From Sycon ciliatum (taxonomy: Eukaryota > Porifera > Calcarea > Leucosolenida > Sycettidae), in NCBI RefSeq assembly GCF_964019385.1, contig NC_088649.1, positions 21,854,435 through 21,918,434 of the forward strand: a stretch of 64,000 bases of DNA, written 5' to 3'. The position numbers were made by a program, and so were the translations under genes. Below, in pieces: positions 29,730-59,592 of the stretch. The notes under the pieces are model-generated. The model was not told where the DNA came from, did no database searches, and saw nothing but the letters and a program-made list of their open reading frames with translations. Numbering within the stretch: the stretch's first letter is position 1; each line of letters opens with the position of its first letter.

Positions 29730-30083
29730 CAAGAGTGCATAAACAAGAGTATGCAACTGTGATTATGGCCTAGTGCGTGGCGCGCTGCCTTCATTACGTA
29801 ACTTGCCTTCATCACGCTCCGAAAGCATGCATTCAAACTCACAATTTCTCGTACGAGCCCATCCATTTTTGCTCGATTCGTTCCAGTACCTACGCGATCT
29901 CTGAATTATGGCGCGTGAACTCCAGTTCCGTACGAAAGTTCATTTCAAACCAGAGGGAAAGTGCGGTGGTTGATTTTCCGCAGTGCGCGGACTGCAGCTG
30001 AATGATGTAATGAAGGCAGTGCGCCGCGCATCTGGCCCATAGAAAATAGATCACAGTTGCATACTCTTGTTAATGGACTCTTG
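29730..30083 (-). mobile_element. CAAGAGT-family MITE, 354 bp
   Basis: Begins CAAGAGTGCATAAACAAGAG and ends with an inverse copy (ACTCTTGTTAATGGACTCTTG type). Flanks are CTATAAT and GTATAAT, six of seven bases matching. It is an inverted, diverged copy of the MITE at 38160-38515 with the same interior. No coding capacity. Confidence 0.85.
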
Positions 30084-30095
30084 GTATAATCCATA

Positions 30096-32553
30096 TGGGC
30101 CAGTGCATGCGAAAACGTGTCTTCGGTGGAAACCGATTTCTTTCAGAATTTTGAGAAAATCGATCGGAAAGAAGAGCAAACATTTTTTTAGCTTGATCGC
30201 TGATCTTGTCGACATTCCAGCTCGATCTCAAGAGAAGCGAAAAGCGATCGACTTTCATCAATCATCATGGACGTGGCGGCACAGCAGGAGTTGGAAGAAG
30301 CACTTGAGGAAGGGCCTGTGAGTAGTCACACTCGAGGTAGAAGCCGAGCAGCACGTCGGTCCGGCTGTACCGCCCGCGTGATTATCGGCGCCTCCGAAGA
30401 GATCGGCAAAGTTCTCGAGGCGGAAGACGACAGTTTCTTTGGCGAGTCGGAGGAGTCGGCAACTAGCAGCTGCACTCGCTCACTGTCTGGTAGTGAGTCT
30501 GATGAGCCTCCTGCTAAGCGCCCGCGCGTGGAAGACTCCTGGGTTGAGCTTGAAGGTGAGTCGAGTGCCGAGGAATCAGGTGGAGACACTGATTCAGCAA
30601 GCGACGATGAAGACGATGAACAAGACGCGCTTCAGAGCGTTGCCGCTGTGGACTCTCTGATTCTTCAAGGCTGTGGCTGCGTGCAGAGCAACCACTATAG
30701 CAGCTTCACTTCGAACTCAATCCTTCACTACCAAGACCAAATCTCGGCAATGAAATCCAAAGAGCTCGACATTTTTTTGATTGGTGTGCTGGCTGCGCGC
30801 TGCACACGCGACGACCCTGTCGTACATAATCAGTCGACAGCTTCTGCAGCTTCCGCAGCGGATCCGAAGCGTACGCGCATCACATTTGGTTATACTGTGA
30901 TGGGCCACATTGTGTGTCGCACCGCGTTCATGAAGCTGCATATGGTTGGCAGAACGCGTTTGCGTCGTCTGCAACTGGATGTGGAGAATGGTAGCTGTCA
31001 CCCAGGTGCTCACGGAAACGTTGGCAATGTGCCTTGGAACAAATTTCCAGCAGAAGTGGGAGACAGAGCACAGCAGTTCATCTTGAACTATAGCTTAGTG
31101 TTCGGTCTCCCAGTGCCTGCAGCCCCACGAGGAAGAGGTGAGGAAGCTCCCATCTACTTACCTGCATCTGCCACTTACAAGTCCGTACACTCCGAATACG
31201 TAAAGCAGTCCGGTGAAGCGCAAACCCTGGGTTACCGTGCATTTTTGTACCTGTGGACGAAAAAGTGCAAGTCCATCAAGTTTATGACGCGGCGGATGGA
31301 TGTGTGCAACAAGTGTGAGCTGCTCAGGGACGATATTCGTTCTGCTCGTGCAGAGGATGAAAAGATTTCTGCGACGGAAGCGCTCCGTGACCATGTGGTC
31401 CTTGCACAAAAAGAGCGCGAGTTCTACACGACAGTGATTGAACAGGCATCCGAATCTCTGGTGGCCAATCCAGCCAACCCTGAATTTACTCATTTGACTT
31501 TCGACTTTGCCGAGCAATTCGTCCTGCCTCAGCACGCGAGACAACCAGGGCCGGTCTACTACAAAGTTATGTTCCGTGTGAATGACTTCGGCATCGTCAA
31601 TGAAGCATCCAAAGAGCAAATTCATCATCTCTACCATGAGGGTCAAACAATGGGAGAAGACAACAAGCTGAATCATAACCCTAACTGTGTGATATCAATG
31701 CTACATGCTTACCTTGAGAGCTCCGTTCATGGCCGCAAGCTCCACCTCCACTGTGACAACTGTTGCGGCCAAAACAAAAACAAAACAATGATGGCGTATC
31801 TTTGCTGGCGTTTGCTATGCGGACTGGAGGATCAGATTGATATCTCCTTTATGGTGGTCGGCCACACTCGGTGTTCAGTTGATGGAGGATTCGGTCTTGC
31901 GAAGCAAAAGTACCGACTAGGTGATATTGACACGATGGAGCAGCTCGTGAGTGTCGTTACGGAATCTGCTTGCTCGAACGTCGCCAGTACGAAAAACTGG
32001 GAGTGGAGGGACTGGGATTCCTTTCTTCAGGGTTACTTCAAGCGCCTTGCTGGCATAACACAGTACCAGCATTTCAACATGACCAAAGAACAACCAGGCA
32101 AAATCAAGATGAAAAAAACGTCGGCTGCTGAAGAAGGTGACACCATCCAGCTGCTGCGTAATCCCAGTGACACCACAGGCTTCTCAAGCAGCTCTCTTCC
32201 TGATGTGCTTCCAGAAGCAGGCTTGTCAGCTCTACGCCGAAAGTACTTGCTGGACAATGTTGCTGGGTTTTGTCATGCGGAGAACAAGGCAGCCTTCACT
32301 GATTGTCTTGGGCAAGACTAAAGTCTGCCTCGCAAACCTGTAGCTGTTTTCAGCAACACTGTAGATAATGCATTATAAGGCATATTCCGTGTTGGACAAT
32401 GCCATAGAAATCATGGTCTCTGTATACTTTCAAATATGATATCCAACTTTATCTTCCACAGAGGTGTTCTTTAGACCCCTGTGATTGATTTTCAAGGGAA
32501 AATTTTTTTTCCTAAATTTTGCCCTTAGACACGGTATTGCATGCACTGGCCCA
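30096..32553 (+). mobile_element. Complete-looking DNA transposon around the 684-aa gene
   Basis: TGGGCCAGTGCATGC at 30096 recurs inverted at 32539-32553; with degenerate similarity inward (GTGTCT on both sides) the TIR is about 15-28 bp. TA flanks both ends. The only long frame, 30267-32321, fills most of the 2458 bp, so gene and termini fit one autonomous unit. The left end lies 12 bp beyond the neighbouring MITE. Confidence 0.75.
30267..32321 (+). CDS. Intact DDE-type transposase-like protein (DUF7869-like), 684 aa
   Basis: A single-exon gene with no internal stop. The N terminus (to about 125) is acidic with a likely nuclear signal (PPAKRPRV near 90). A CxxC pair sits at residues 347 and 350 (DVCNKCELL). 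The C-terminal half carries LTFDFAEQ (D413), LHCDNCCGQNKNK (D497) and VVGHTRCSVDGGFGL (D539), which could form the three acidic positions of an RNase-H-fold transposase. Downstream blocks (QHFNMTKEQPGKIKMKK, then LSALRRKYLL) match the usual end of the family as I know it, so the protein looks full length. Enclosure by TIRs and TA supports a transposase acting in the nucleus on these ends. The superfamily name is not certain. The start ATG follows ATCATC and leaves a plausible 170-bp leader. Confidence 0.8.
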   Translation: MDVAAQQELEEALEEGPVSSHTRGRSRAARRSGCTARVIIGASEEIGKVLEAEDDSFFGESEESATSSCTRSLSGSESDEPPAKRPRVEDSWVELEGESSAEESGGDTDSASDDEDDEQDALQSVAAVDSLILQGCGCVQSNHYSSFTSNSILHYQDQISAMKSKELDIFLIGVLAARCTRDDPVVHNQSTASAASAADPKRTRITFGYTVMGHIVCRTAFMKLHMVGRTRLRRLQLDVENGSCHPGAHGNVGNVPWNKFPAEVGDRAQQFILNYSLVFGLPVPAAPRGRGEEAPIYLPASATYKSVHSEYVKQSGEAQTLGYRAFLYLWTKKCKSIKFMTRRMDVCNKCELLRDDIRSARAEDEKISATEALRDHVVLAQKEREFYTTVIEQASESLVANPANPEFTHLTFDFAEQFVLPQHARQPGPVYYKVMFRVNDFGIVNEASKEQIHHLYHEGQTMGEDNKLNHNPNCVISMLHAYLESSVHGRKLHLHCDNCCGQNKNKTMMAYLCWRLLCGLEDQIDISFMVVGHTRCSVDGGFGLAKQKYRLGDIDTMEQLVSVVTESACSNVASTKNWEWRDWDSFLQGYFKRLAGITQYQHFNMTKEQPGKIKMKKTSAAEEGDTIQLLRNPSDTTGFSSSSLPDVLPEAGLSALRRKYLLDNVAGFCHAENKAAFTDCLGQD

Positions 32554-32729
32554 TATAGTGAACGCATACATACCTTGAGGAACACTATGTATACATTTTA
32601 ACCTCATTTTTTCCAGAAATCTTCATCACAATGAGAACTGGATTTACAAAAGAAATACAGGTAGACTCTCTTTAATTCGAACCTCAAATTGCCAGGCCCT
32701 AACTTCGAATTATCGTCGTTTGTCATCGC

Positions 32730-33171
32730 TCACCACACCAGCTTCGCCCCTGAATGGCAGGCTGAGTCTGACTCTGTTGACGCTGCCCCAGCCAAGCAGT
32801 CTTCCGCTGTTGCAGCCCACTACGATGACTCTGCTCATCCCCTTCCTCCGCTACGCATCGGCTGTCGTGTTGATCTCCAGGATCCACGGTCCAAGCTGTG
32901 GCATACCAGCGGTGTCATCGTTGCCGTCGGTCGCAATCGTGACTACCTCGTCAAGGTACCCAGTGGCCGCACCTACTGGCGCATCCGTTGCTTCCTTCGA
33001 CCCGTAACCGCTGCTGTTATCCCTCCAGCCCCAACTTGCACGCCGCCTGCTAGCAATCCTGCTGCTAACGTTGCCTCTCCTGATCCGCAACCGCTCCGCC
33101 AGAGCCAACGCCCTTGCACTGCCCCTAACCGCCTGGACATTGCCTCGTATTCCACTAAGTCATATGATTAG
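32730..33171 (+). pseudogene. C-terminal fragment of a Ty3/gypsy Pol (integrase tail)
   Basis: The frame open from 32689 shows PLRIGCRVDLQDPRSKLWHT, then GVIVAVGRNRDYLVKVPSGR and WRIRCFLRP, followed by a Pro-rich stretch and PLRQSQR to a stop at 33171. This is the SH3-like end of a gypsy integrase and the usual Pol C-terminal tail. Protease, RT, RNase H and the integrase core are absent, so only the 3' end of the element remains. Confidence 0.75.
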
Positions 33172-33301
33172 CTGTGTTAGTGCTCTGTTCTCTGCTGCGT
33201 GTGCAGTTCCTACTCGTTCTCGTACACTGTATTTGATATTTTTCATTTAGTTGTTGAGATAAACCTGGCTAGACCACTGTTTTATCTCAGAAGGGGCGTG
33301 A

Positions 33302-33533
33302 TGTGATATGATGCTCATGTCTTATCACGTGACTATTACGTCATATGTTTTGCCTGTGTATTACGTCACAACCAGCATGCGCCATCCTGGACTAGTCGCC
33401 TGAAATGCATGCTTGGCTTGACCTGGTTGTCTGTTCTTACCTGTCTACTTCACACTGGTATCTAATTGTATTCTTCAAAACCTCAACCTGTGTCCTTGAG
33501 TGTCTGTGCATGACTGTGAAGGCAGACATCACA
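33302..33533 (+). repeat. Candidate 3' LTR of the gypsy fragment
   Basis: About 130 bp after the Pol stop, a purine tract AGAAGGGGCG precedes TGTGATATGATGCTC. A matching end GGCAGACATCACA lies at 33533, giving TGTGAT...ATCACA and about 232 bp. No second LTR is in the window, so the boundaries are inferred. Confidence 0.45.
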
Positions 33534-33969
33534 TCCGCGAAGAGAGTCAGCCACCTGGAAGAAGTCGTCTTCAATCAAACCTTTGCAATTTGCCTCGCAC
33601 GGGTTTGAATCAAATTTCGAGAGAAGGTGGGTTTCTTGAACGCTATAGTCGATCCTGCAGCGGACCATCGATCGATTTTTGAGCTACTCTTGGCTAGAGA
33701 AGGAGAAAAGAATGAACTTCGAATTACAAGGATAGCAACTCAATCTCACTTCGAAATGAGCGTTCAAATGACATAGCCAATGTACTGTAAACAGCTCTTC
33801 TGTACGAAGACTGGGTTCGAATTATCCAACCGGCGCACTTTTCATCCTTCGGATTATGCATTCGATTTTGACTTGAAGTGACTAGCAGAAGATCGGTACG
33901 ACGAAAAAGTTCGAATTACACGGAATGTTTGAATTATACCGCATTCAAATTAGAGGGAGTTCACCTGAA

Positions 33970-36020
33970 CTTTGGTACCATTTATGTAAATAAAATTGGG
34001 TCTAAAGCTAATACGAGAAACACTAATATATTAATGAGAAAACAGTGCAGAAGGCGTGATTACAAGTCAAGCAATAGTATGAGCAAGTGCGGTGTGAAGA
34101 TGTGCAAGTGAGAAAGCTGCATGTGTGTGTGTGTGTGTGTGTGTGCTAACTTTAACCTACTCTTACTGGTACGGTTATGGTAGTGGTACATTGCAAACTT
34201 CGTGGATGAACAGCTCTAGTCTAGTGTAGTGGCTAGTCGGCAACACTGTCTTACAGGTGAGATTTTTAATTTTGACAAAAAAATTGTTTTTGAGAACTGA
34301 GATTGACAGTCATTTGACTCAGTAGGCAGTAGTAAGTATTGTACTATCTCTCCTCCTAAAATTCGATATCATGTCCCTGTCACTTCGGCTGAGGGCAACA
34401 AGCCTCAGCATCACTTTGCTCCCATATGCAATATGTATTCACTGCTTGTGAGCTATGGTTGCCGCAAAAGAAAAAGGAAGTGCTGAGTTGAGATTGATCT
34501 AAGTAAAAGTTGAAGATTTCAAACTGCAGACAAAGTAGAACACTCACATGGTTGTCATGTTTCCGCACGACAGTAGAAAGCCGTCCACGCATGTACATGG
34601 ACCACAGACGGTTCTGGCATTGCAAGGTGCACTCCATGCCAGCAACATAGAAAGCACGACCAGCGATAAGATCTGCGAACATCCAAAGCAAATGGCGAGA
34701 TGCAATAGCAGATGCACAAGCAGAGCACAACAGAAAGCTTCTGCTAGAAACTGCACAGTTTACGAATTATCGCAATACCCGTATTTTTGTATTGTATTGT
34801 ATATTGAATAAATTTTACTTTGGTGGCTCAACAGTACAATGTACTATGTGTACAGTGCCACAAAGAAGCCCGAAAAACCGATCATAAAGAGATAAAGAGG
34901 AAAAAGAAGTAGCAAACCAAAGACTAGATTTACATATCATCGTATTCAAGCCCCCCCCCCCCCCCCCTCTGTTCTCAACTCATTAGGGGCCGTCCGTAAA
35001 TACCGAACGTTTTTCGCCAAACGAATTATGTTAGATTAGACCCAGCCCCTCCCTCCCTCCCCCTCAGAACGTAAAAAACGTTGACATGCAGTACACGCAT
35101 ATACAACAAAAGTTGCATGTGTGTCACTGTTCCAACGGCCATGTGTATGTATCAATGTTATCTGAAGCGAAATTGGTCGACCCCCTCCCACCCCATAACG
35201 ACATTATTTTTGTGAAGAACATTCGATAATTATGGACGACCCCTCTACAAATTACGGCACGGTACATCCACAACACACATAAAATACACTGCTGCATGGT
35301 ATTTATAATTGAGATGCTGACAGTCATGACATCTTATTATTTCCCATACTGTTCATATTTGATCATAATTATTGATCTATCATACTATTTTTTTCTCATC
35401 TTAGCTACTATTTCTTTCCCGATGTCCATGTTATTGTGAAACATCAATTGTGACAATATTCCTGAGTTTAGCGCTGAGAAAATCAGTCTTGATTTGGTTC
35501 ACTTGTGCCTATAATTATATACTGGAGTCGATTTGATAGTGGAGCAAACAAATACGAGCACAGTCTCCAATATCAACATAATCTCTCTAGCTGCGCGGTC
35601 AGAGCTATCACTGACACCTCTGGTTACCATTCTGGAGCATGTACTCTGCTGCTTGTTATAACCGGCGGCGAAAGCACAATGTGAGAATCAGACCACGCAT
35701 GCAGATTTAGAGATTAGACACTCTTGGGCACTTATAATTATGTTCTTGACAACACAGTACATGTACAAGTGACAACAAAGAAAACTAACAGCTACTAGTA
35801 TAGAATTATTGAGTACTTACACACAATTGTGAAGCGTTCATGATGTCTTCGTTGCACACAGCTTCCGAGATCCACGTAAAGTATAATTATGCAACATACA
35901 AATTTGAGTTCCCTTTTTCGGTAGACCTCTTTCTGTTGTGAAATGCCGATTGCTCGCACAGAGAAATAACGGTGACTACTTCTGGGAAAGCGGGGCCAAA
36001 AGTGCTTCTACTCTTGGCAA
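33970..36020. other. About 2 kb without genes: microsatellites and one MITE-like block
   Basis: AT-rich sequence with a short (TG)n at about 34122-34146, a poly-C run near 34951-34967 and the inverted-repeat block at 34986-35243. Open frames around 34380-34811 overlap on both strands and carry no motif. Confidence 0.5.
34986..35243. mobile_element. MITE-like element with GGGGCCGTCC ends, about 258 bp
   Basis: The left end GGGGCCGTCCGTAAATACCG and the inverted right end GGGGTCGTCCATAATTATCG align over about 30 bp with mismatches. This type of terminus is widespread among animal MITEs. TA precedes the left end; the right flank is not a clean duplicate. Confidence 0.55.
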
Positions 36021-36052
36021 TGGTTTGACTGTGAAAGAAGAACTGTGTTTAC

Positions 36053-36174
36053 CAAGAGTACATGAAAACGGTTTTCATGTACTCTGTACTCTTGGCTGTA
36101 CTCTTGTTCGTACCAAGAGTACATAATTATGTACTCTTGTTTGTACCAAGAGTACATACCGGTATGCACTCTTG
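36053..36174. mobile_element. Cluster of three CAAGAGT palindromes (42, 26 and 28 bp)
   Basis: Units at 36053-36094, 36114-36139 and 36147-36174 each start CAAGAGTACAT and end ACTCTTG. The 26-bp unit is a perfect palindrome flanked by TTCGTAC and TTTGTAC (six of seven match). The 28-bp one has an ACCGGT centre. The outer two lack clear flanking repeats, consistent with nested or overlapping insertion. Confidence 0.7.
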
Positions 36175-36526
36175 GTTTCTTGGTTGCCAAATCACCTCGT
36201 ACAAACAGTGTGTTTCAAAAATATAGACGTGTGATTTCAAAAAAACGTTTGGCCATCATCTACGTATACCAGGTCCCACATAAAATCTGTGATCACTTTG
36301 TGCATAACAATTTCGAAATTGAGTGTTTGCTATCCGATTGCTTAAAAATCAATATGAGAGTAATTGGGGAAAGGACCTGAGCAATATTCCGAAAGAAATT
36401 CTCGAAAAGCTCCTGCCAAATTTGAAATATTTCAAAAATAACATGCCTCCATATTTTTGAAATGGACATGAGCCAAATTTGGAGTGTGTACGGCTGCGCA
36501 TGCACGTTGAGAGCAGGGAGGAGTAC

Positions 36527-36725
36527 AGTCTTTGCGTCTCTGTGTTTTTCACTGTTTTGACATTATTTTTCTTTACGGAGTTGTTGTTGCTGTTCATTTT
36601 GCTACTCTTTCTTTTTCCCTCCCCTAATTTTCATTTATCGCCGTGGTTGGCAATCACCCACTCTCTTAACATTGGCCGGTGTTTCCACCGAGTCTTGAGA
36701 TGTTGTAATAAATATAAATAATATA
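36527..36725 (+). pseudogene. LINE 3' UTR fragment
   Basis: A pyrimidine-rich stretch ending GCCGTGGTTGGCAATCACCC, GATGTTGTAATAAATATAAA. It resembles the 3' end after the reverse-transcriptase gene at 58461-59329 and the fragment at 59793-59897 (GTGGTTGG, CATGCCACGAG/CCATGAG, AATAAATA repeats). It is a solo tail without coding sequence. Confidence 0.55.
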
Positions 36726-36782
36726 CTACTCCTTGGTTCAGAGTACTGTGTGCCGTGTGTGGACAATCATGATCAGTACAAC

Positions 36783-36831
36783 CAAGACTCAAGAGTACAT
36801 GAAAACCGTTTGTTATGTACGAGTACTCTTG
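36783..36831. mobile_element. 49-bp CAAGA-ended micro-element with a perfect 7-bp duplication
   Basis: Starts CAAGACTCAAGAGTACATG and ends GAGTACTCTTG. GTACAAC stands directly on both sides (36776-36782 and 36832-36838). Confidence 0.85.
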
Positions 36832-37344
36832 GTACAACATGAGTTCGCATGTACTCCTGCACAGTTCTTCTTTCACAGTTGGGCTGTGTTTTTTTTGTTT
36901 TTTTTTGTTTGGCACCTATGAATTCAGGGGATGGCCCACGCCTGGTAAAAAGAAAAAGAAAGGCTGTGTTTACATGAGAAATTTCAACCCGGGTCGAGTT
37001 CAGCCCGGGTTGAAAGTGTGTACGATAGACAAAAGAGGTGAGCGTTAAGGGCCTGGTCAGACTGCGGCAAAATCGAAATAATCCTGGGATTATAATCCGA
37101 ATCTCCATAGTAACTTGCCGCCAGAGCGGCAAAAGCGAGAGTTGACGCTCCAAAAAAAAAAGCAAGAACGGGCCACGCTTTTCCGCTCCAAACAGGATTT
37201 GACGCTGATACGCCATTGACGCTGATAATCACTGATTTTTTCATCTCGATATCGAGGAGCTAATTGGCCACGGACAACAACAAAACTCATAAGGATGGTT
37301 GCAAGGATTGCACTGAAGGTGTTGGCGATCCCAAGGTGAAGGAA

Positions 37345-37680
37345 TTTGACGTCGTTCGTGGGACTACCAACGCATATGGCCGATTGGTTTGCAGGCCTGC
37401 CTGCGAATCATGAGGTCCCGAGTTCAAGACCCGCGCTGGTAGCAGGGAGCGTGTAAAAAGACTTTTTACGCGTGTTGAACTGCGCCGACACCCACGGTCA
37501 ACTGGGTACTCACAGCTCGGAGTGAGAATAACAAGGATGCAGTTTACAGGGTTATGGGCCGTTACACGCCCGATTGGTTGAGAGACTAACCTCCTCTCCC
37601 CTGACTCACTTGTGAGGTCTGCATTCGCCACTAAGGTTAACAGGCATAGTGGTGGCCTGCGGATGCGAAGGCTAGTTTAG
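37345..37680 (+). mobile_element. tRNA-related SINE (probable)
   Basis: An A-box-like TGGCCGATTGG at 37377 and a B-box-like GAGTTCAAGACCC at 37420-37432, 43 bases apart, fit an internal RNA polymerase III promoter. A non-tRNA body follows to about 37680. The ends are not sharply defined. Confidence 0.45.
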
Positions 37681-37737
37681 GTGTTTCTGAACATTCAAGC
37701 GATGCCGACGCGGATCCCGCGAATATTATTATTATCA

Positions 37738-38148
37738 GAGAGGTTCCGGGGTACGATTTTCCGTGCCAAAATCCGTGTGGGCGCTACGGATTTTTTCCAG
37801 GAGTGCTCCATACGATTTTTCGGCACGGAGAATCCGTGTGGACTGGCTTTCACACGAACCATGTTTCGTATGGAGATTTTGCGTCATCGGGTGCAGAAAG
37901 ATTTTTCGCGTACAAATTTGGTACGAGAAACATGGATTTTCCGCGGTAAGTTTTGATTTCGGTACAAATTTTCAAAATATAAAGGCATAGCGCGGGAATG
38001 TGACGTGTTTGCGATCGTAACCTAGGCAATGACGGCAAACACACAAGTTCCGTACTCCGGAACATTTCACTGCTCGAAAACGACGTATAAAAAATCCGTA
38101 GCGCCTCTACGGATTTTGGCACGAAAAATCGTACTCCGGAACCTCCCT
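37738..38148. mobile_element. TIR element E with GGTTCCGGAGTACG ends, copy 1
   Basis: The two ends match inversely for about 55 bp (GGTTCCGG, GTACGATTTT, GTGCCAAAATCCGT, GCGCTACGGATTTTT) with a few mismatches. It lies between ATT-rich flanks, so the target duplication cannot be read. A second copy starts at 63767. No coding capacity. Confidence 0.75.
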
Positions 38149-38159
38149 ATTATTATTAT

Positions 38160-38515
38160 CAAGAGTCCATAACCCAAGAGTATGCAACTGTGATCTCTTT
38201 TCTATGGGCCAACCGCGCGGCGCGCTGCCTTCATTACATCATTCAGCTGCAGGCCGCGCACTGCGGAAAATCAAACACCGCACTTTCCCTCTAGTTTGAA
38301 ATGAACTTTCGTACGGAACTGGAGTTCACGCGCCAGAATTCAGAGATTGTGTAGGTACTGGAACGAATCGAGCAAAAACGGATGGGCTCGTGCGAGAAAT
38401 TGAGAGTTTGAATGCATGCTTCCAGAGCGTGATGAAGGCAAGTTACGTAATGAAGGCAGCGCGCCACGCATGCACCCATAATCACAGTTGCATACTCTTG
38501 GGTTATGGACTCTTG
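38160..38515 (+). mobile_element. CAAGAGT-family MITE, 356 bp
   Basis: Perfect 35-bp TIRs begin CAAGAGTCCATAACCC. TTATTAT flanks both sides (38153-38159, 38516-38522), though in an ATT-rich setting. The interior also has near-symmetrical GCGCGCTGCCTTCATTAC blocks near each end. It is an inverted homologue of 29730-30083. Confidence 0.88.
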
Positions 38516-39068
38516 TTATTATTCGTGGAGATTACCACTTGACGCTCAAAATGAAGTTTGAATTTTCATTCTCCCCACATGTGTAGTGTGATCGCGATTC
38601 AAATTCTGGACGCTGTTCTTTTTTCGTCAGGCAACCAAAAGTTGCCGCAGTCTGACCAGGCCCTTACATGAAGACATTTGGCCCGGGTCAAATACTGATA
38701 TGCCGCCCAAAGTCCACTTCTACAGTCCTGTATACCGGTATGGTCAAACGAATCCGTTCGCGCGAAAATTGCATCTGTATTTTTTTTTCAGGACTGTAGA
38801 AGTTTTTTTTTTTACCGAAAGCTATATATTTTGAATATAACCAAAAAGAAACAAAGAAAAATGATGGCACCTATGTACAGGGGATGGCCCACGCCTGGTA
38901 TAAAGTAAACGTAAAAGAGAAAAAAGAAAAAGAAGAAGGAAAAGAAAAGATAACAAAGAAAGAGAGGTAAGCAACTCCATGTACATCCACCGTACTTGTG
39001 TCATACGCTTACAATGAACACTCAGCAGCCGCCAGAACAGCCGAGTGAACAGGAAGTAGATATCCTTA

Positions 39069-40005
39069 GGGCGCGCTCACACTGCGACCATGAGCACGCG
39101 CCCATGCGTCAGCAAAACGCAGAAACGTGGGAGTCGTGCTCACACTAGGCCTCGTACACGCGTAGACGTGAAGTTGTCACACAAACTTTACGAATTGCAG
39201 TTCGTATCCAAAAGAGTTCGTGCGTTTCCTAATAAAGTTGTGGCCCGTTTTGGATGTAATTTTTCGCATGTTGCATGTTGGAGGAATTGCCTCGTGGCTC
39301 GTATTCTTGAAGTAGACGAAAATAATTCATACAATCAGGTAGGTTTGGACTCTTGAGGGACTGCCGCTGACATCCAAGCGCTTTCGCTTTCCTGACCTCG
39401 TGGTCAGGGCAAGTGCCAGTGCAGTGGAAATTCCGGTAGTGGTTTCTTTCGTCTGTTGCCGAGATGAGAACTGTAGTTTCCGATGATATGTAACTGAAAT
39501 GTCTTGAGGTATGGCATTCCATCACCGCAGAAAAGTAGAGAAAGATGACTTACCAAACCGAAAAGCCAGACCAAGCTGCCATCGTATTGAACGAGTACAC
39601 TGTAGAAATTGGTCACTGACCCGATCACAACGAAGCAACTACAAAAACAAAAACAAAATCGACATCGTCCAAAAAGGGCAAAGAATGCATATATGGCGGT
39701 GCGTGCGTGCAGGACCACAACTACAAAATAAAATGTGCAAATGTCGAGGTGACATCGACAACCGCCGATTTTCATGAATCAACACACCGGAATTTGAGAA
39801 ATTGAACATACTTCAGGCCAGGTTGTACACAAATACTCTTCACGTCTACGATCATGTTGCCGCCAAGTCGTGGCACCCCCCTCCGGAGGTCGCGGTCACG
39901 ATTTGAAACGTGGCCGCGACGTTTTGGTCAAGTTCATGCCGTTGCCATGCAACTTGGCCGCATGGCCGCATGGACGCTGGTTTTGGTCGCAGTGTGAGCG
40001 CGCCC
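39069..40005. mobile_element. PIF/Harbinger-like TIR element, 937 bp
   Basis: Perfect 22-bp inverted repeats begin GGGCGCGCTCACACTGCG. TTA stands on both outer sides (39066-39068, 40006-40008). A 3-bp TTA duplication with GGG-starting ends is typical of PIF/Harbinger elements. Open frames inside (39090-39353, 39404-39775) carry no recognised transposase, so it is probably non-autonomous. Confidence 0.75.
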
Positions 40006-40008
40006 TTA

Positions 40009-41054: not shown

Positions 41055-41096
<42 letters not shown>

Positions 41097-43429: not shown

Positions 43430-43464
<35 letters not shown>

Positions 43465-43543: not shown

Positions 43544-43598
<55 letters not shown>

Positions 43599-46437: not shown

Positions 46438-46477
46438 AGCCACTACTAAGAGCCTCCTGGTCGTTGCAATCTGATTG

Positions 46478-47546: not shown

Positions 47547-48536
47547 GCTGCGTTCTCGAGAAGAAGCGTTATTTCTGCATTCCAAGAAGGACGACACAAT
47601 GGTGAGTGGAACTTCGTGGGTGTGCAGCCTTGCTAGTTGAGTTGTAAATCAATCATTCTTCCTGTCTCTGACTTCTTCAATGTCCTCCTCAGTGTCGGAC
47701 TGTCCGCGTCGCATTGAATTGGTCCGATGAGGCTGCTATTGCACACACAGTGAGGGAACTCCCATACGGGAACTCGGAAGTACTGCTACAGTACAGGTAA
47801 GGTGGCCGTTGCTTATGTGCGTGCGCCGTTGTTGTCAACTTTTAAGCCAGATGTTTCACAATGCATTGCACCAAGAGTACATAACCCCGGAGGTCATGTA
47901 CTCTTGATTGCACTCAGCACCGCTTCTCGGAATATCTTGTCAGGATAGCTGTGGAACGCATCCTCCCCAGTGGAGGAACGGCAAATGTGCTGTTCATTTT
48001 AGGCTTGCTTTTATGGTACGTACAAATCCCCATTGAAAAGACATAGTGGAGACGAGAAACTGCAAATAGATGTTGGGAACCGGGAAGACCACCCTTCCTT
48101 GCCAAGTTCCCTGAGGGTGTGGAGGGGGGGGGGGGGGGGAGAGTGGAGGAGGGACATTTAAAGCAGGATTCACATGAGCATTTTCAGAAATTGCTTGTAC
48201 ATTTGTACCAGTTGTAGCCGACAAACGCATGCTCATTGAGCTTTGACTTGAGGCACATCAGCAAGGCGCTGTTGCATCGCTTACGTCTTGTCGTGATTCT
48301 GTGAATGGTATTTTGTGCGAGTTTGCATCGCACGCAGAATCGCAGGTCATGCCGCATTGCGCAGCACACTGCCAAATTGCTTCTGTGACTCCCACGTGAA
48401 TGGGAATTCCAATAGGAATGTAATCCATTGCCAACAGGTGTATTCCCGAGCTGCGCATCATACTGCAAAATTGCTCCTGTGCATGCAAGTGGATTTCATT
48501 GCTCTTTTCAGTTTAGGAAATTCTCGATTATGATAA

Positions 48537-48589
<53 letters not shown>

Positions 48590-48713
48590 TGTGTGTGTAC
48601 ACCAGCCCTGAACATACATGTAGGTGACCCATTTGTGGTGTCTCATAGCCTACCTCACGACCTTATGCTTTCTTTCTGCATCACTTGTATCTTGCAGGTA
48701 TATCATCCCGTGA
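47547..48713 (+). CDS. 3' exons of a spliced host gene, tail-anchor-like end
   Basis: Four exon candidates have proper borders and compatible phases: 47547-47601 (CACAG^ ... ATG^GTGAGT), 47693-47796 (CTCAG^ ... CAG^GTAAGG), 47944-48015 (GTCAG^ ... ATG^GTACGT) and 48698-48713 (TGCAG^ to TGA). Joined they read REEALFLHSKKDDTM, then CRTVRVALNWSDEAAIAHTV, RELPYGNSEVLLQYRIAVER and ILPSGGTANVLFILGLLLWY to a stop shortly after. The last 20 residues are hydrophobic and could anchor the protein in a membrane. The start and upstream exons (candidate at about 47321-47425, duplicated exons before it) are not resolved. Family not recognised. Confidence 0.42.
47872..47906. mobile_element. 35-bp CAAGAGT micro-element with a perfect 7-bp duplication, in an intron
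   Basis: Starts CAAGAGTACATAACCCC and ends ATGTACTCTTG. ATTGCAC precedes (47865-47871) and follows (47907-47913) exactly. It lies between the exons ending at 47796 and starting at 47944. Confidence 0.9.
48541..48598. repeat. (TG)n microsatellite
   Basis: About 58 bp of TG, inside the last proposed intron (48016-48697). Confidence 0.95.
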
Positions 48714-49481
48714 CGACCACATTGAAGTCTGAATTTGAAGTGTGAAGATGCTTCAGGAACCCCTTCATTTTTTCCATTGCTTTTATTGTGCTGCTACTGT
48801 GCATGTGATGGCAACGTATGCCGGTGACACGGTCAGATTTTGTCCATGCGTGTAACGTACACCTGCATGCTATCGTTGAAAAGGATCTGCCACTTACGAT
48901 CTTCGGACGAGTATCAGGTCAGCTTGGTTTTGTGTGGGCTGTACCAGATGCTGTTCACTTCTCTATCTGTTGGATATGTGACTTTCTGCAAGTTTCTGGT
49001 GTATGGTGGCCACTTCTTTGCTTGTCTTTGTATGACATTACAATCATTCTGCACTCACTGCTTCCATGGTGTGGTCTGCAAACTGCAATCCTTACGCAAA
49101 TATCATCACGGTTTGCAATGTTGTGCTTTGGCTGCCAGCTTACCTTTATTTTGTTTCACAACTGACTTCCTGAAGTATGGTGGCCACTGCTTTGCATGGC
49201 ATTATACAATGTTCATCAAGAATTTTCCTGTTTGGGCCGTGTGTGCGTGTGTGTGTCACTGTGTGTGTATGTGTCACTGTGTGTGTATGTGTGTGTGTGC
49301 CATGTGCATGTGCTTGTTTGTCACAATGTGTCTGTGTGCGGGGTAGCGAGGTGGGAAGGGCTGGAATGTATCCGTGTGCTACTGCAATCGCATGGCTACA
49401 TACAGTGCATCGCGCGCATGCTCACCATGTTTATCTTCGGAGCTGGGCCGGGGTGGGGGAGGGAACAGAAAAAGAACTGAA
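48714..49481. other. About 770 bp without a recognised gene
   Basis: T-rich downstream sequence with a TG-rich patch (about 49243-49300). Open frames here are long runs of Cys/Val codons from TG repeats and are not supported. Confidence 0.5.
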
Positions 49482-49944
49482 ATTACCCATATAAAAACCG
49501 CTCTGTGAGCGGTTCTGAAAAACCTCTACTGGTGCAGCCCCGTCGTAAAAGTAAGAAATTAGGACTGGTGCATTGTCCTCCCAAATGTGAACTGATCCAC
49601 CTAAATCGCGATTGACGGGACCCGAACGCACCAGTAGCACGAGGTCGGGACTCGGGAGGGCACAGGATTACAGGAATGGACCGGCGCCGATCAAGTTACC
49701 ATACAACACTTACAGTACCCCGAAGCCCACCTTTGGCTTTGGCTATGGACCAGCGTCCCCAGCTGCATCCACAGGTAGGAACCTCGTGCTACTGGTGCGT
49801 TCGGGTCCCGTCAATCGCGATTTAGGTGGATCAGTTCACATTTGGGAGGACAATGCACCAGTCCTAATTTCTTACTTTTACGACGGGGCTGCACCAGTAG
49901 AGGTTTTTCAGAACCGCTCACAGAGCGGTTTTTATATGGGTAAT
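49482..49944. repeat. Perfect 164-bp inverted duplication with a 135-bp spacer
   Basis: 49482-49645 and 49781-49944 are exact reverse complements by eye. The right arm read on plus (and so the left arm on minus) is fully open: VRSGPVNRDLGGSVHIWEDN, then LISYFYDGAAPVEVF. The pattern GGSVHI...F.YDGxAP resembles a DM13 domain core (known in secreted or membrane-linked animal proteins); this is a tentative match. The spacer continues the plus frame (TFGFGYGPASPAAST). Likely a very recent inverted copy of an exon-like piece, or a foldback element. Confidence 0.75.
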
Positions 49945-50210
49945 ACATAATATACCTCGTTAGCTTGCCACCGGCTGCACCCGGGCCTAATTGCATTTGC
50001 AGTGCTGTTCAAACTTGGCGCGAAATACGCACAGAAGTACGTTTGTACGATTTTCTTGACCCATGGCCCATGGGAGGGTTGAAATCAACCCGGGGCGAAA
50101 TTTCAACCCGGGTCAAGCTCAATGCGTCATGTAAAAGGGACAAGATTATTTATTTTTGAGGATTTTCTTTCATAAAAAAATTACCGTCACAGGCCAGGCT
50201 TCTCTTTGTA

Positions 50211-50603
50211 GGGGTGCGTTTGGTTGGTACGATCTAGAACAGGATCGAACAGCTGGTGCACATGGAGCAGCCTCATGCCAACCAAACGGTACTCCAGAAA
50301 CCGAGCACATTTTTGTGGAAAAATGTGCCAAACTTGGTGCATTCTTCAAAATGTGTATGGGTCACCATGGTCACTTTGTACGGTACGACGAATCCAACCC
50401 AAAAGCGTATGCACGTGATCATCTGGGACCAAAATCGATGTTCCCGCAAGGTTTCACTGTGAAAAGTGAAACTGCTCGGTCTGCTCCGGCCTCGAGGTTG
50501 GAGCAAGCAGAACATGTTCTGGCCGACCCAGAACAGGTGCAGTCCCAACCAAACGCGCTGTTCTGGTGAATCCTGTTCTAGTTCGTACCAACCAAACGCG
50601 CCC
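50211..50603. mobile_element. MITE J, 393 bp
   Basis: Ends begin GGGGTGCGTTTGGTTGG (left) and GGGCGCGTTTGGTTGG (right, inverted), continuing into CTAGAACAGGAT on both sides: about 34 bp with few mismatches. TA at 50209-50210 and 50604-50605. Non-coding. Confidence 0.85.
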
Positions 50604-50605
50604 TA

Positions 50606-50984
50606 AGGCTGCATTCGATTGTAGAAACTGGATCCCGATCCCCGCCGACCAGATCACTTCGATCTGACGGTACGGATACAATCGAATGTGCACAACCGAT
50701 AATCCGTTTCAAGGCCTTGGCAACCGCGTTGCTACAGCTCATCCCGTAGTATCTGTACGCGTTGTGGTAAACTCTTGACCCAGTGTACGCATATTGCGAG
50801 TTTTGAGTAGATACGAGTCGTACTATCGAAATGAATCCGTCGAATCCGTCGAATCCGTCTCTGGGAGGTGGGTTGACTGGATCCGAATCCGTGCTCTCGG
50901 GATCCGGATTCGTACAATCGAACATGCACAAATTTGGCGAATCCGGGTCCGGGGCTGATGGATTCGTACAATCGAACATGCCCT
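50606..50984. mobile_element. MITE K, 379 bp
   Basis: Ends AGGCTGCATTCGATTGTA (left) and AGGGCATGTTCGATTGTA (right, inverted). TA at 50604-50605, shared with J, and at 50985-50986. The interior has GGATCCG-rich repeats and GAATCCGTC repeated three times (about 50832-50858). Non-coding. Confidence 0.8.
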
Positions 50985-51039
50985 TAGTGTCCGCCTCCCA
51001 GCGGTCCGGGCAAGCGACCGCAACTCAGTGGGACACTTC

Positions 51040-52170
51040 GCCGTGGCCTTTGTACTGGAATCTGTGGGAGAGCCTTGCCTGGGGCTACACACCTGGTATG
51101 GGTACCGGCAAGAGTACATAACCCCCCAGAGTGTGCAACGCCGATCCAGCTCTAGAGCTCTGTGTAGGGTCTTGGTCGAGCGGAATCGGATCTTCTGATG
51201 TCATGCGTACACTTCACACCAGCGCAAGGCCGGTCTCGAGGCAGGGCACCATTGTTTTTGATCCAAGAGTACCCGCGACTCCCCGGGTTCCCCTCAGATG
51301 TGTACGGTATTATGACGCAAAGATCCGATTCCGCTCGACCAAGACCCTATGCAGAGCTGGATCAGACGTTGCACACTCTGGGGGGTTGTGTACTCTTGGT
51401 ACCGGGTACGGGTACGGACAAATCCCTGGTGTTGCTCCTTTTTTTGTTCCTTTCCTTTTTACTTGTTTTTGCTGAGAAAGAAACGTTGCTGGATGGAAAG
51501 CTTTCTGTTCCCGCCAGCGCCTTTGCTCTAGTAAAACATTGCATAAGGTGAAGGGAAGCTGGGTTTCTTGCCATTTCCAACTTCCTGACTCTGAAAATGT
51601 AGCTTGAACTAAGAGCTCCCTGTATTTTAGTTTTTCGATGTGCCAGACCTATTGTTACGAGCTTCAGAGATGAGGAGCAAGGGAGGCGTTGGATTAATGC
51701 CAAAAATGGTGTTCAGGGCCCGGACGACGCCAGCGGTTTTCACTTGTCAAGAGGACAGCCAAGCTGGAGCAGGAAGATGATAGATTTATTACTGTGACTT
51801 TGAGCATTTATAGCAGAGTGGATGGCTTGCCAAAGTCTCAGTACCTCATGGTTACTAGTATCTGACAAATGCCTCGTATTGCTAGTCTGCATTAGAGCAT
51901 AGCAGAATTGATCATTTCACAAGTAGAGTGAAGACTTGATGTCCTACGATTATACTCGGATCATGTTGCTACTTCACGGGAATATTCGTCCTGCAACTGT
52001 ACGCTCTCCCAGAATTGCATGCAGAAGTCACGTGCCTGTCCCAGTGTGCAAGGGGCAACGCGTTTGCATTGCTTACGGATTCAAGCGAATGGAGTGCAGA
52101 CCAGATGAGAAGACATAATTCGGCTATTCAAATAGCTTGGGCTGCTATTAATTGGCTAGACCCCTGGAAA
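51040..52170 (-). repeat. Segmental duplication X, inverted partial copy 3
   Basis: Apart from the 280-bp MITE, this stretch is the reverse complement of about 56040-56905 and partly of 45190-45964. Landmarks are GAGAAAGAAACGTTGCTG, CTAAGAGCTCC, CTTGTCAAGAGGACAGCCAA and TGCATTAGAGCATAGCAGAA. No gene recognised. Confidence 0.82.
51119..51398. mobile_element. CAAGAGT-family foldback MITE, 280 bp
   Basis: Arms of about 80-86 bp start CAAGAGTACATAACCCCCC (left) and CAAGAGTACACAACCCCCC (right, inverted) and stay alike to GGAATCGGATCTT, with one small indel. GTACCGG stands exactly on both sides (51112-51118, 51399-51405). The inverted duplicate of this region near 56820-56850 lacks the insertion. 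Confidence 0.92.
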
Positions 52171-54044
<1,874 letters not shown>

Positions 54045-54980
54045 ATCTCTCGTCTGTCAATATCTCGGCTGTCTGTCTTTCTCCTTCTGCCTGTTTTTGT
54101 CAGTCTGCCTGTCTGTGTGCCTAGATGTTTCTCGCTCTGTGTGTCTAAGTGTTTCTCTGAGTCTTCGTCTTAGCAGTTCTGTCTGACTGTCTGTGTTTGT
54201 CTGTGTAACTCTCCAACTGTCTCCCTGTCTAGGTCTGTCTGTTTGGCTGTCTCTGCTTGTCTCTCTATGTTCTTCTGTCTTCTTTTTTCTGTCGGCCTGT
54301 CCCTGTATTTATGTATCTATTTCTCTCTCTGCTTCTATTCTTCTGTAGTCCATCTCTAAGTCTCTTTTTCTCTGTCTCTGTCTTCTTCTTGATCTGCCAC
54401 TCTCATTCTCATTGTTTTCTCTGTCGCTCCCTAAGGACCCTCTGTCTCTGGCCCTCTGTGTCTTTGTGTCTGTCTCTCCTTTTGTCATTCATTCTGTGTG
54501 TCCCTCTGTTTCTGTCTCTGTCTTTGTCTTTCTGTGTCTGATCGTCGGTCTCTATCTGTTTTCTCCTGAGTCTGTGTGTGTGTCTGTCTCTCCTGCTTTT
54601 TCTTAAAATGTTTCTCCCTCTCTTCTGTCTCTGTTTTTCTGGGTCTGATCGTCTGTCTGTTCGTCTTTGTCTGTCTGTCTTTGTCTCTTTCTCTCTTAGT
54701 CCATGTCTCCGTCTCTCACTCTTTATGCGCATCCCTCTGTTTCTGTCTTTCTGGGTCTGTATGTCTCTAGCTCTGTACCGGCCGCTGTTCTGCACATAAT
54801 GAAATCGTGAGGCACCGCACACGTGGCTGTATATTTACCTATGCGTGGGACATTCACACCCAAACACACACACACACACACCCAAACACACACATACACA
54901 CAAATATACACACACACACACAAATATAGACACACATACACACACAAATATATATACACACACAAATACACACACACTAT

Positions 54981-55012
<32 letters not shown>

Positions 55013-56905
55013 ATACATACACACACACAAATATACACACACACACACACACACACGCACATACACACATACACACTAGTACGCTCGATCATACAAGTAC
55101 CGGGTACATGTAGTACTGCAAAAGTCACTACATAAAACGCCTTCCTCTCTTCTCTCTTCTCTCTCTGTTTCTCTCTCAATCTCTCTCGCTATGCCTGCCG
55201 CTGTGCTATCATAGAGCTACAGATAGTGAAATTGTGTGGCACAGAACACGTACATAACTGTATATTTACCCACACGTGGGACATTCACGCATGCACACCC
55301 ACACCCACACACACACACATGACCTGCAGCAAATAACATTTCATAGCTACAAGACCTTGAAAGAAAGTCATGGTGTCAAGAAGATATACAATGTCATGTA
55401 GAAGGATAATAGTCAAACAGCTTGCTGTCTAGAGCATTGGTAATGTACTGGTAGTAGGGATAATCCCAGAGAGTCAAACTATCAGATAAAATGGCAAGCG
55501 AGAGTCTCTACTTTTTAGAGTACAGTGTGTGGGTAAGCAGACAAGCTTAGTTCATAACAAATTGATAATAAAGTGTAACCAATGCCGTCATTGGATCATG
55601 TGTGAGCGACCAAAGAGGCGTACATCACATGTCCTGTACCACTATAACCACACACAAACGTCCAGGAGAATTTCACGTACCGATGGATCTATCATGCTGC
55701 CGGGGATCCCTCATATATCTCATACTGTGGTATGTAACCCTCGGGGAATTGCAAGGACCTAAATACGGCAAGCAAATCAGGGACATTAGGTGCAAGACCC
55801 GTTGTTCTAGTTGTCTAGACTGCACTGTGTTCTTGAACATACTGAGCCTCCGCGTTGTATCTGTTAAGACATGTGGCATCTGTTGATCTCGTTTGAGTAG
55901 CAGTAGTAGGCATGCACTGCATTACGTTTCGATAAAAGGTTTGATAGCTGATGAATGGGTTTATCAGTTGGCTTCCTGTGTGGGTATTGTTTCTGTGGAT
56001 TGGTTCGGAGCAATGTTCAGATGGGCCAGGCACCTGGCCAACTAATAATGGCAGTCCAAGCTAGTTGAATATCCGGATCACTTTTTCTCACCTGGTCTAC
56101 ACTCCATCCGCTTGCATTCATAAGCAATTCAAGCACGCTGTCTCTAGTACATGTACACTGTGACAGGCACGTGACTTCCGCATGCAATTCTGGCAGAGCG
56201 TACAGTGGCAGGACGAATATTCCCCTGAAGTTGCAACATGATCTGAGTATCACCTTACGACATCAAGTCTTGACACTCCTTGTGACATGATCAATTCTGC
56301 TATGCTCTAATGCAGACTAGCAATAAGAGGCATTTGTCAGAAACCAGTAATCATGAGGTGCTGAGACGATCTGCTATAAATGCTCAAATAATCTGTCATC
56401 TGCCTGCTCCAACTTGGCTGTCCTCCTGACAAGTGAAAACTGCTAGCGTCTTCATGGCCATAAACACCATCATTGGCATTAATCCAACGCCTCCCTTGCT
56501 CCTCATCTCTGCAGCTTGTAACAATAGGTCTGACACATCAAAAAACTAAAATACTTGGAGCTCTTAGTTCAAGCTACATTCTCAGAGTCAGGAAGTTTCA
56601 AATGCCAAGAAACCCAGCTTCTCTTCACCATCAGCATCACGAGCAATTACCATTATCAGCCAGCAATGTTACTAGAGCAAAGGCGCTGGTGTGAACAGAA
56701 AGCTTTTCATGCAGCAACGTTTCTTTCTCAGCAAGAACAAATACTACAGTAGTAAAATTCCAGCAACGTTTCTTTCTCAGCAAAAACAAAAAAAGGAAAG
56801 GAACAAAAAAGGAGCAACACCAGGGATTTTTCCATACCCGGAACCCAGGTGTGTAGCCCCTGGCCTGGCAAGGCTCTCCCACAGACTCCAGTACAACGGT
56901 CACGT
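54045..56905. repeat. Segmental duplication X, copy 2
   Basis: Direct copy of 42601-45964, very similar, but lacking the counterpart of 43597-44152: the CA repeats on either side of that segment are fused here. Copy 2 extends past the point where copy 1 diverges, into the GGAGCAACACCAGGGATT and GTGTGTAGCCCCTGG sequence shared with copy 3. Confidence 0.85.
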
Positions 56906-56956
56906 ACAAGTTTCCCACAAACCTCGTTTATTCAACATAATCATATCCTATCCGAT

Positions 56957-57730
56957 AAGTATCTAATATTGACTGAGTACGAGGTCAATATAGGAAATAA
57001 AATCCGAGTAAAAGACCGAGGCGAAGCCGAGGTCTTTTACGAGGTTTTTATTTCCTATACTGACCAAGTACGAAGTCAATATTAGATTTATCACGACAAA
57101 CAGTCCGTATTTCAAATTCCAAAACGATAACCTCGTGAATCCCGGTTTTATGATTGCACAACCGTTGCACCACCACCTACTCATGCAGTGACAATGCTGC
57201 ACTAGGCACCGTTCAATTGCGCGACCCCTAAGTCCAATATAAGCAGTCAATATAGCCCTAAGGAGTGAAATATGCAGGAATATTTGACTGCTTAGGTATG
57301 GCAAAAATCTATGTGAGTCAATACTAAGGGAGTGATAAAAACATTTATCACTCCCTTAGTATTGACTCGCATAGATTTTTACCATACCTAAGCAGTCAAA
57401 TATGCCTGCATATTTCACTCCTTAGGGCTATATTGACTGCTAATATTTGACTGCTTAGGGGTTGCGCAGTTGAACGGTGCCTAGTGCAGCATTTTCATTG
57501 CATGAGTAGGTGGTGGTGCAACGATTGTGCAATCATAAAACCGGGATTCATGAGGTTATCGTTCTGGAATTTGAAATACGGACTGTTTGTCGTGATAAAT
57601 CTAATATTGACTTCGTACTTGGTCAGTATAGGAAATAAAAGACCTCGTAAAAGACCTCGGCTTCGCCTCGGTCTTTTACTCGGCTTTTATTTCCTATATT
57701 GACCTCGTACTCAGTCAATATTAGATACTT
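56957..57730. repeat. 774-bp palindrome (foldback) with nested hairpins
   Basis: The arms (about 387 bp) run from AAGTATCTAATATTGACTG inward to a centre near 57343 with almost no loop (GGGAGTGATAAA...TTTATCACTCCC). Similarity between arms is high with scattered mismatches. Each arm contains its own imperfect palindrome of about 120 bp around GACCGAGGCGAAGCCGAGGTC-type sequence. Non-coding. Confidence 0.88.
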
Positions 57731-58460
57731 CATAAAAACAGTTCATAAAAACAGCTCTTTAGGATCGGACCCAGTCCGCATAACCAAGAGAGCTGGCTCC
57801 CTTGGCTGCCGTTGGAATATGCAAGAAAAGGCCTTCCAGAGAAGGTCTAACAAGAAGAAGTGGCTATGGTTATGAAATGAACACCGGTGACCACGGAGAC
57901 AGACCACACTCTCATTATAGATACTGGTTATAAATAGACCGAATAAGGAAAATGATCTGATAGCCTATGAAGAGTAAAATAAATTGAACCAATGACAACA
58001 AATACTCGTCCAGCACAGGAGTTGTCATTAATAATATTATTATTATTGCAAATAACGCTGAGTAATTAAACGAATGCACAAAATCCGGCATTTGCTTTCG
58101 GGAAGGATTCACAAACATAAGACAAAAACACCATAGCTCAATGTAACTGCACATACGAAAAGCAGCTTCTATTGTCAAGTTCGAGTGGCATTTTCAGAAA
58201 GACGGTAGACTGAAATGTGATCGTGCACGATGTTCACCCTGGAGGGGATAAGTCAAGGACGCGGCTCGGCAGTAGGCCTTGACGGATTATGCTAGCATGA
58301 TTTTTCGCATAATTCTTACCAAAATCGAATAATCGCATAATTCGAGGCAAATTGCATACGAATCGCATAAATTGGAATAATCCGCCTGTTCGCATCAAAT
58401 TCCATACAGTTGTACAATGTTCTACAAGTACAAGTACCGGTACAAGTAGATGCAAGAGGA
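57731..58460. other. About 730 bp without a recognised gene
   Basis: AT-rich sequence between the palindrome and the reverse-transcriptase segment. TTATTATTATT microsatellite near 58030. GCATAATTCG-type motifs repeat around 58315-58375. Confidence 0.4.
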
Positions 58461-59329
58461 AGTCAATACTTGGGCCACTGCTATTTCTCCTGTATATTAA
58501 TGACCTCCCCGATACTGCCCCTGGTGTCAGCCTTTTCGCTGATGACACAGCTCTGCTTTGCTCCAATGCTTGCCCTATACGCCTGCACAAAGCCATGCAA
58601 GATAGCATTGGGAAAGTTATAACCTGGATGCATGATTGGAAGTTGCAGCCAAACGTTGATAAAACGGCAGCTATGTACATTTCCCCCTCTCCCCCTTCCC
58701 TGCCACTTTGTTTTCCTTCTTCAAGTGTTGCTATTCGCATTGTTGAAGAGCATAAGCATCTTGGCGTTATTATTGACTCTAAATTGTCGTGGTCACCCCA
58801 TGTGCAGTATGTCTGCAAGCGCACAAGCTCCATCCTTGGGGCTCTTCAAGCCCACTGTAGACATCTTCCTCTTTCTTGCAAACGCTTGTTTTATCGTTGC
58901 TATATATTGCCCTTACTTGACTACTGTGATACTGCTTGGTGTGGCATAACTACTACTGTATTGAACAAGCTAGAAACCCATAACCGCATGCTCCTTAAAA
59001 TCTTATTTAGCAAAGATCTTCGCTTTCCCTCCGCTAGTCTTTACGAAATTGCCAAGATCAGTCCCCTTTCCACTCGACATAAGTACCACCTCTGTGTTAT
59101 CATACATAAAATATTACTAAATAAAATACCCTTGCATATGCAGGCTTATAATTGGTTCTCCGAAACACGGAACACCCGGAACTCACTCAGTCTCCCACGC
59201 GCTGCCTCCACCCTATTCACTAGATCCCCGATCTTTGCTGGCTATGTGTTTTGGGCAACATTACCAACGCAGGCCAAGACCAGCACGTCGATGGATAATT
59301 TTGTTGCTAAAATCTCTGCTCAATTATAG
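58461..59329 (+). pseudogene. CR1-like LINE reverse transcriptase, 5'-truncated but open
   Basis: From SILGPLLFLLYINDLP the frame runs uninterrupted to a stop at 59329. It holds the catalytic box LFADDTALLC, then WKLQPNVDKTAAMYIS, HKHLGVIIDSKLSWSPHV, RCYILPLLDYCDTAWCG and LNKLETHNRMLLKILF. Fingers, N-terminal RT blocks and the endonuclease are missing, so it cannot be autonomous. The intact palm and thumb show it is young compared with the LINE at 27896. The open frame extends upstream to 58352 without recognisable RT sequence. Confidence 0.85.
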
Positions 59330-59500
59330 GTTTCATGTATATCCTGCTGGTTTGTCTCCTCCTTTGCCTTCTTTGCCTCTTATTTGTATTCTTTTATCTG
59401 TTTTACTGCTGTGGTTGGCTTTCACCCTTGTCTCAGTTTTATTGGCCGTCATCATGATGTGCCATGAGATAATGATATAAATACAATACAAATACAAAGT
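59330..59500 (+). other. 3' UTR of the CR1-like LINE
   Basis: A pyrimidine-rich stretch, TGGTTGGCTTTCACCC and GTGCCATGAGATAATG, ending in short repeats ATAAATACAATACAAATAC. Short tandem 3' ends instead of long poly-A are typical of CR1/L2-type LINEs. Confidence 0.6.
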
Positions 59501-59554
59501 CGTAGGTTTACGACTCCCTTGATAACATGTCCAGTCCACTACAATCAGTGACGG

Positions 59555-59592
59555 CAAGAGTACATGTACATGTACTCTCTTATGTACTCTTG
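59555..59592. mobile_element. 38-bp CAAGAGT micro-element
   Basis: Starts CAAGAGTACATGTACATG and ends TATGTACTCTTG. Flanks GTGACGG (59548-59554) and GGGACGG (59593-59599) match in six of seven bases. Confidence 0.78.

Follow-up and report, generated by a model that had tools for sequence, protein, structure and literature searches.

We analyzed a 64,000-nucleotide stretch of the Sycon ciliatum genome (contig C8:21854435-21918434 of a 538-Mb assembly; hereafter the window), in which sequences with the ends CAAGAGT...ACTCTTG, some tiny palindromes and others a few hundred base pairs long, are flanked by matching 7-bp direct repeats. All seven such insertions listed in a first-pass annotation are present in the window, although one start had been given as 51119 and the true start is 51109. 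They are described below together with neighboring copies, with large copies labeled as P-type miniature inverted-repeat transposable elements (MITEs) and small ones as scars, following the reading argued for in this text.

29730-30083: P-type MITE, 354 bp, flanks CTATAAT/GTATAAT (six of seven positions match), inner terminal block at both ends
36053-36174: cluster of adjacent scars or remnants, with members at 36053-36094, 36114-36139 and 36147-36174
36114-36139: perfect palindrome, 26 bp, read as an excision scar, flanks TTCGTAC/TTTGTAC (six of seven)
36783-36831: scar with filler, 49 bp, GTACAAC on both sides, exact from 36783
38160-38515: P-type MITE, 356 bp, TTATTAT on both sides, exact
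47872-47906: scar, 35 bp, ATTGCAC on both sides, exact
51109-51398: P-type MITE, 290 bp, GTACCGG on both sides, exact
59555-59592: scar, 38 bp, flanks GTGACGG/GGGACGG (six of seven)

The element at 36783-36831 begins with CAAGACT and has its canonical CAAGAGTACAT end at 36790, and the TTATTAT duplication at 38160-38515 lies within a TTA run and is hence weak taken alone. In the cluster, the 7-mers preceding the 36114 and 36147 members end in GTAC, and the 36053 and 36147 members lack matching 7-mers on both sides.

To compare the flanking repeats with chance we surveyed 36 sequences (307.6 kb), comprising the window plus 35 loci (15 of about 3 kb, 20 of about 10 kb), every one of which had been picked because it holds a tiny palindrome. 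Left and right ends lying 20-1200 bp apart formed 175 pairs, 33 of which had exact 7-bp flanks, while exact matches of 5, 6, 8, 9 or 10 bp were found in none of the 175 and of 4 bp in three. Among the 33 exact pairs 29 were simple, enclosing no other, and 28 had distinct sites; when symmetrized for strand, these 28 gave the consensus GTANTAC, with T2/A6 in 52 of 56 positions, and the preference extended to positions flanking the 7-mer. A 7-bp duplication at such a palindromic site agrees with the 7- or 8-bp duplications that characterize the P superfamily. Small pairs (at most 60 bp, with 11-nt arms differing by no more than one mismatch; 38 sequences) numbered 53 and had exact flanks in 21 cases, flanks one base off in 12 and flanks off by two to seven bases in 20, as compared to 16 exact matches in 2756 combinations when right flanks were swapped among the small elements. 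The 37 palindromes used to pick the loci had 18 exact flanks, seven one base off and 12 without a duplication. This was further supported by a scan that assumed no motif, where repeats of 5 to 10 bp gave 24, 6, 21, 3, 3 and 1 matches, respectively; all 21 of the 7-bp matches belong to the CAAGAGT...ACTCTTG family, some matches at 5, 6 and 8 bp are of other kinds, and one shuffle of the sequences gave none at 6, 7 or 8 bp. The insertions and their 7-bp duplications are thus real and well above chance, whereas the first-pass annotation had named chance agreement of the flanking 7-mers as a refutation.

Empty sites were sought by joining the flanks of 46 insertions (duplication with at most one mismatch) with a single 7-mer and comparing them with the window and the locus sequences. 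We read 15 of the comparisons at the level of single bases, and in 12 of these, covering seven small insertions, the 7-mer was carried once and no insertion was present, at 82-99% identity. The window insertion at 47872 has such a paralogous empty site at L030:2639-2759, with a single ATTGCAC, and the other pairings were as follows.

L004: empty site in L021
L017:4607: empty sites in L017:9595-9800 and L020
L027:3397: empty sites in L033, L023 and at window position 20990, the last with a 9-bp gap nearby
L027:4576: empty sites in L023 and L033
L029: empty sites in L027 and L033:2102-2264
L031: empty site at L031:8461

The other three comparisons are neutral or speak against it, as eight extra bases stand in another copy of the L029 site found in L033, and the relatives of the 290-bp MITE at 51109 (two comparisons) are all indel-rich. 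Short matches across the junction were also listed for L035, for the window palindrome at 36114 and for the copied locus L033/L034. The first-pass annotation had suggested orthologous loci of different individuals as a check; paralogous empty sites exist for seven small insertions.

The large copies (226-356 bp) are best read, from sequence comparison, as P-type MITEs. Six of them match an autonomous element (described below) over the first 30-52 positions at each end, with end scores of 24-61 as compared to 14-22 for five shuffles of one MITE; they share its ends and duplication length, and their lack of coding capacity was judged by their length. Intact ends of one subfamily, allowing three mismatches, numbered 563 and 573 (1,136 in total; control 0), and several of those listed pair up 249-318 bp apart. 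The earlier reading of the family as transposons and MITEs thus held for the 7-bp duplications and for the ends common to small and large members, and was not supported where it took the small ones for insertions.

PF21787, the P-element-type RNase H domain, was found at 44 places in the genome and in none of 14 control genomes. At one of these (L037) the terminus CAAGAGTCCATAACCCCCCAGAGTGTGCAACTCGTGATCC, flanked by TTATCGG, stands 233 bp upstream of an open frame that runs into the PF21787 place. The expected right end followed by TTATCGG, with at most two mismatches, occurs at 74 places, of which a single one is exact (C1:67765168-67765190). Together these define the autonomous relative with the same ends that had been proposed as a thing to look for.

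C1:67759261-67765183: autonomous element, 5,923 bp, TTATCGG on both sides, enclosing a P-type transposase

A similar end with two mismatches is present on C7, where a second domain place follows about 1.5 kb downstream, its frame holding a stop. The transposase has a P-type RNase H core, and its predicted fold matches that of Drosophila P transposase in an alignment spanning residues 316-794, with 14-15% identity across the aligned fold. Since an element with these ends encloses a transposase of predicted Drosophila P-type fold, we place the family in the P superfamily. PF21788, the GTP-binding insertion, was not found by Pfam in the protein (P0040), for which the fold alignment covers the residues given above, and profile searching against PDB sequences did not bring up P, yielding three rows at E 0.24-0.92. 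No THAP domain was detected at E ≤ 0.1 in any of six proteins scanned, one of them short (P0048), by searches not dedicated to THAP. We also observed a conserved set of cysteines (like FCPGI, C..W, C..C) at residues 119-182 of P0040, before the catalytic core and at the place expected for THAP. The set is present in the relatives P0041-P0045 and P0047 too and recurs with small changes in seven of nine aligned rows, the region being absent from the other two.

Genome-wide, the palindrome pattern at 22-52 bp matched 1502 places and the reversed pattern none; 155 more palindromes measured 53-83 bp, among which at least C1:9139288-9139358 consists of two neighboring scars. Among pairs clear of the seeds (the palindromes used to pick the loci) whose duplications were exact or one base off (n = 15, a scan that missed the 49-bp element at 36783), nine measured 20-41 bp and six 226-356 bp, leaving no pair between 41 and 226 bp. 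Arm lengths were determined for 50 listed palindromes as the identical run against six variants of the terminal repeat, where the lower bound of 11 nt was set by the search pattern. The results showed an upper limit, as 98 of 100 arms were 11-19 nt long (41 of these 17-19 nt) and the remaining two 20 and 21 nt. The inner AGAGTG block was reached by none of the 50, and in the surveyed sequences, on both strands, a pattern reading through AGAGT had no matches as compared to 30 without AGAGT. The arms meet bluntly, with an overlap of 1-2 nt or with filler, and 46 of the 50 palindromes are distinct in sequence; one repeated pair (L033/L034) shares its duplication and is probably a copied locus. 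Three pairs of the 50 are spaced exactly 7 bp apart. Ends plus duplication give CTTG-GTANTAC-CAAG, which resembles the preferred target, and an occupied site would therefore be expected to make a good target again. An asymmetric 32-mer occurs at 17 dispersed places, and the duplications around the L008 copy and the L027 copy differ; it could represent a recurrent junction, several of which appear in a table of Drosophila P excisions (PMC2895639 Table 1), or a rare mobile form.

Taken together, we consider it very probable that the large copies are P-superfamily MITEs and that the palindromes of 20-50 bp are their excision scars. P transposase is reported to cut one strand at the element's 3' end and the opposite strand 17 bp further inward (PMC7776569), and consequently end joining after P excision leaves two duplications that enclose as much as 17 nt from either end, together with microhomology or filler (PMC2895639). 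The small palindromes have this P-type anatomy, as their duplications are kept (in 33 of the 53 small pairs with no more than a single mismatch), 98 of 100 arms stop no later than nt 19, in keeping with the cut offset, the inner block is lacking, junctions vary and 46 of 50 are distinct, and we therefore interpret them as scars. The large copies would be non-autonomous cut-and-paste elements with ends like CAAGAGT(A/C)CATAACCCCC|AGAGTGTGCAAC, inserting at a palindromic target close to GTANTAC and thereby producing the 7-bp duplication. In Sycon the transposase presumably cuts one strand at the element end and its partner within the terminal repeat, at an offset of about 17-19 nt as suggested by the arm lengths of the scars. 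The donor site would retain both duplications and on each side about 18 nt of the terminal repeat as a 3' tail, and end joining with trimming, fill-in, microhomology or filler may then give a near-palindrome, so that each small palindrome would mark a former full copy. The parts of this reading that the analysis shows are the ends, duplications, empty sites, arm-length limit, autonomous element and P-type transposase fold.

A very unlikely alternative is that palindromes of 20-50 bp represent genuine minimal transposons, moved by a transposase that needs only about 11-18 bp of end. The duplications and empty sites fit this as well, as does the 32-mer, with 17 places and different duplications in the L008 and L027 copies. 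However, with 46 of 50 distinct there is little clonal amplification, and elements with arms of 20-100 nt should work equally well or better, yet none of the 50 reaches the inner block and reading through AGAGT abolishes all 30 matches. According to PMC1562414, the ends required by P in D. melanogaster are 138 and 216 bp long, and Anopheles P-MITEs have ends under 100 bp. The proposal of the first-pass annotation that pieces of 26-49 bp integrated in that form, through a transposase using about 12 bp of terminal inverted repeat, is therefore not supported, since the arms stop near the P-type cut, the sequences are so diverse and the family belongs to the P superfamily, for which excision in Drosophila is known to produce scars of this type. 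That some tiny palindromes, for example the 32-mer, are mobile through a P-type transposase using ends shorter than 20 nt is in our judgment very unlikely. Such palindromes would be transposons of about 30 bp. To our knowledge, no transposon is that small.

It is likewise very unlikely that MITEs shrank in place without transposase, by palindrome-driven deletion through cruciform cutting or replication slippage. Long inverted repeats are unstable in other organisms, and most of the six compared MITEs contain them, which counts in favor of such shrinkage. It predicts a spread of arm lengths, but all except two of the 100 arms stop by nt 19 and the 15 non-seed pairs leave the gap between 41 and 226 bp. 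A hAT or other superfamily making 7-8 bp duplications can be practically dismissed, as 7 bp is close to the hAT value of 8 but the ends enclose a P-type transposase and no hAT transposase; in this respect the first-pass annotation correctly held that a 7-bp duplication does not fit Tc1/mariner, Harbinger or ordinary hAT elements.

Several points weigh against excision scars of P-type MITEs. No locus turned up in both a filled and a scarred state, and 20 of the 53 small pairs lack a near-exact duplication. The arm measurements come from one part of C1 and from elements that the search had already required to have 11-nt arms, and 57 of the 100 are 11-16 nt, under the presumed cut, so that trimming must be assumed. 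One simple pair of 76 bp, overlapping a seed, lies in L010. The 17 places of the 32-mer, with differing duplications in two copies, could mean that a tiny form has moved. On the protein side, Pfam finds neither THAP nor GTP-binding domain in the transposase, and the mean pLDDT (predicted local distance difference test) of its model is only 54.7.

In a second family, whose ends are CAGGGAG...CTCCCTG, 12 end pairs were listed; among these, exact 8-bp duplications surround three small palindromes (38, 38 and 40 bp) and one copy of 953 bp.

L036:234-273: second-family copy
L005:2007-2044: second-family copy
L021:5402-5439: second-family copy
L027:6587-7539: second-family copy

This suggests the same scar-forming process, and the link of this family to P is one of adjacency only. 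A P copy in L036 with a 983-aa frame was considered as the partner of the CAAGAGT...ACTCTTG family and dropped, as it adjoins the CAGGGAG...CTCCCTG ends with 8-bp duplications; a left end with matching duplication was not found for it.

Elsewhere in the window, an open frame of 684 aa with a DUF7869 domain (30267-32321, plus strand) lies 183 bp from the 354-bp MITE. It has 38 relatives among public proteins, one of them 99% identical, and perhaps encodes a mobile-element protein; as a transposase for the family it was dropped, since nothing links it to the CAAGAGT...ACTCTTG ends. A long minisatellite with 9-bp steps and 1104 overlapping 300-nt copies begins at about position 1074, and 56957-57730 is a long inverted repeat, 95% self-complementary and far longer than the palindromes studied here.

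Roughly 1,500 scars seem to be present in the genome of this sponge, beside the 1,136 intact ends of one subfamily. P excision footprints are known from Drosophila assays (PMC2895639), and in the open-access papers searched no genome-wide set of P-type excision scars was seen; the end sequences used as a query retrieved only papers unrelated by title. Two questions thereby become testable: whether all of the superfamily makes the long staggered cut that has been described for P of Drosophila, and in which way (blunt, microhomology, filler) broken ends are joined in the germ line of a non-bilaterian animal. Repeat annotators should also be aware that a short palindrome flanked by a target duplication can be a scar rather than an insertion.

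Among known systems, Galileo of Drosophila (P superfamily) is similar in its 7-bp duplications with consensus GTANTAC and its non-autonomous copies rich in inverted repeats (PMC4168063, PMC2775673), but has terminal repeats of about 0.9-1.3 kb (PMC3573991), as compared by description with the 30-52 positions shared by the Sycon MITEs. The P-superfamily element 1360 of D. melanogaster also makes a 7-bp duplication, at the palindromic target GTTNAAC (PMC3276498), in another host and likened here by description rather than by end sequence. With Galileo and 1360 making 7-bp duplications, the P superfamily was overlooked among the candidates weighed in the first-pass annotation. The P-MITEs of Anopheles gambiae likewise have ends common to P elements, with terminal repeats of 27-31 bp, but 8-bp duplications (PMC1562414; the word 'footprint' is absent from its main text). 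Drosophila P shares the predicted transposase fold and differs by its 8-bp duplication (PMC3276498) and THAP domain. Its footprints, consisting of the duplication and up to 17 nt of each end joined with microhomology or filler (PMC2895639 Table 1), resemble the small palindromes, although they were made in assays whereas those of the sponge lie in a reference genome.

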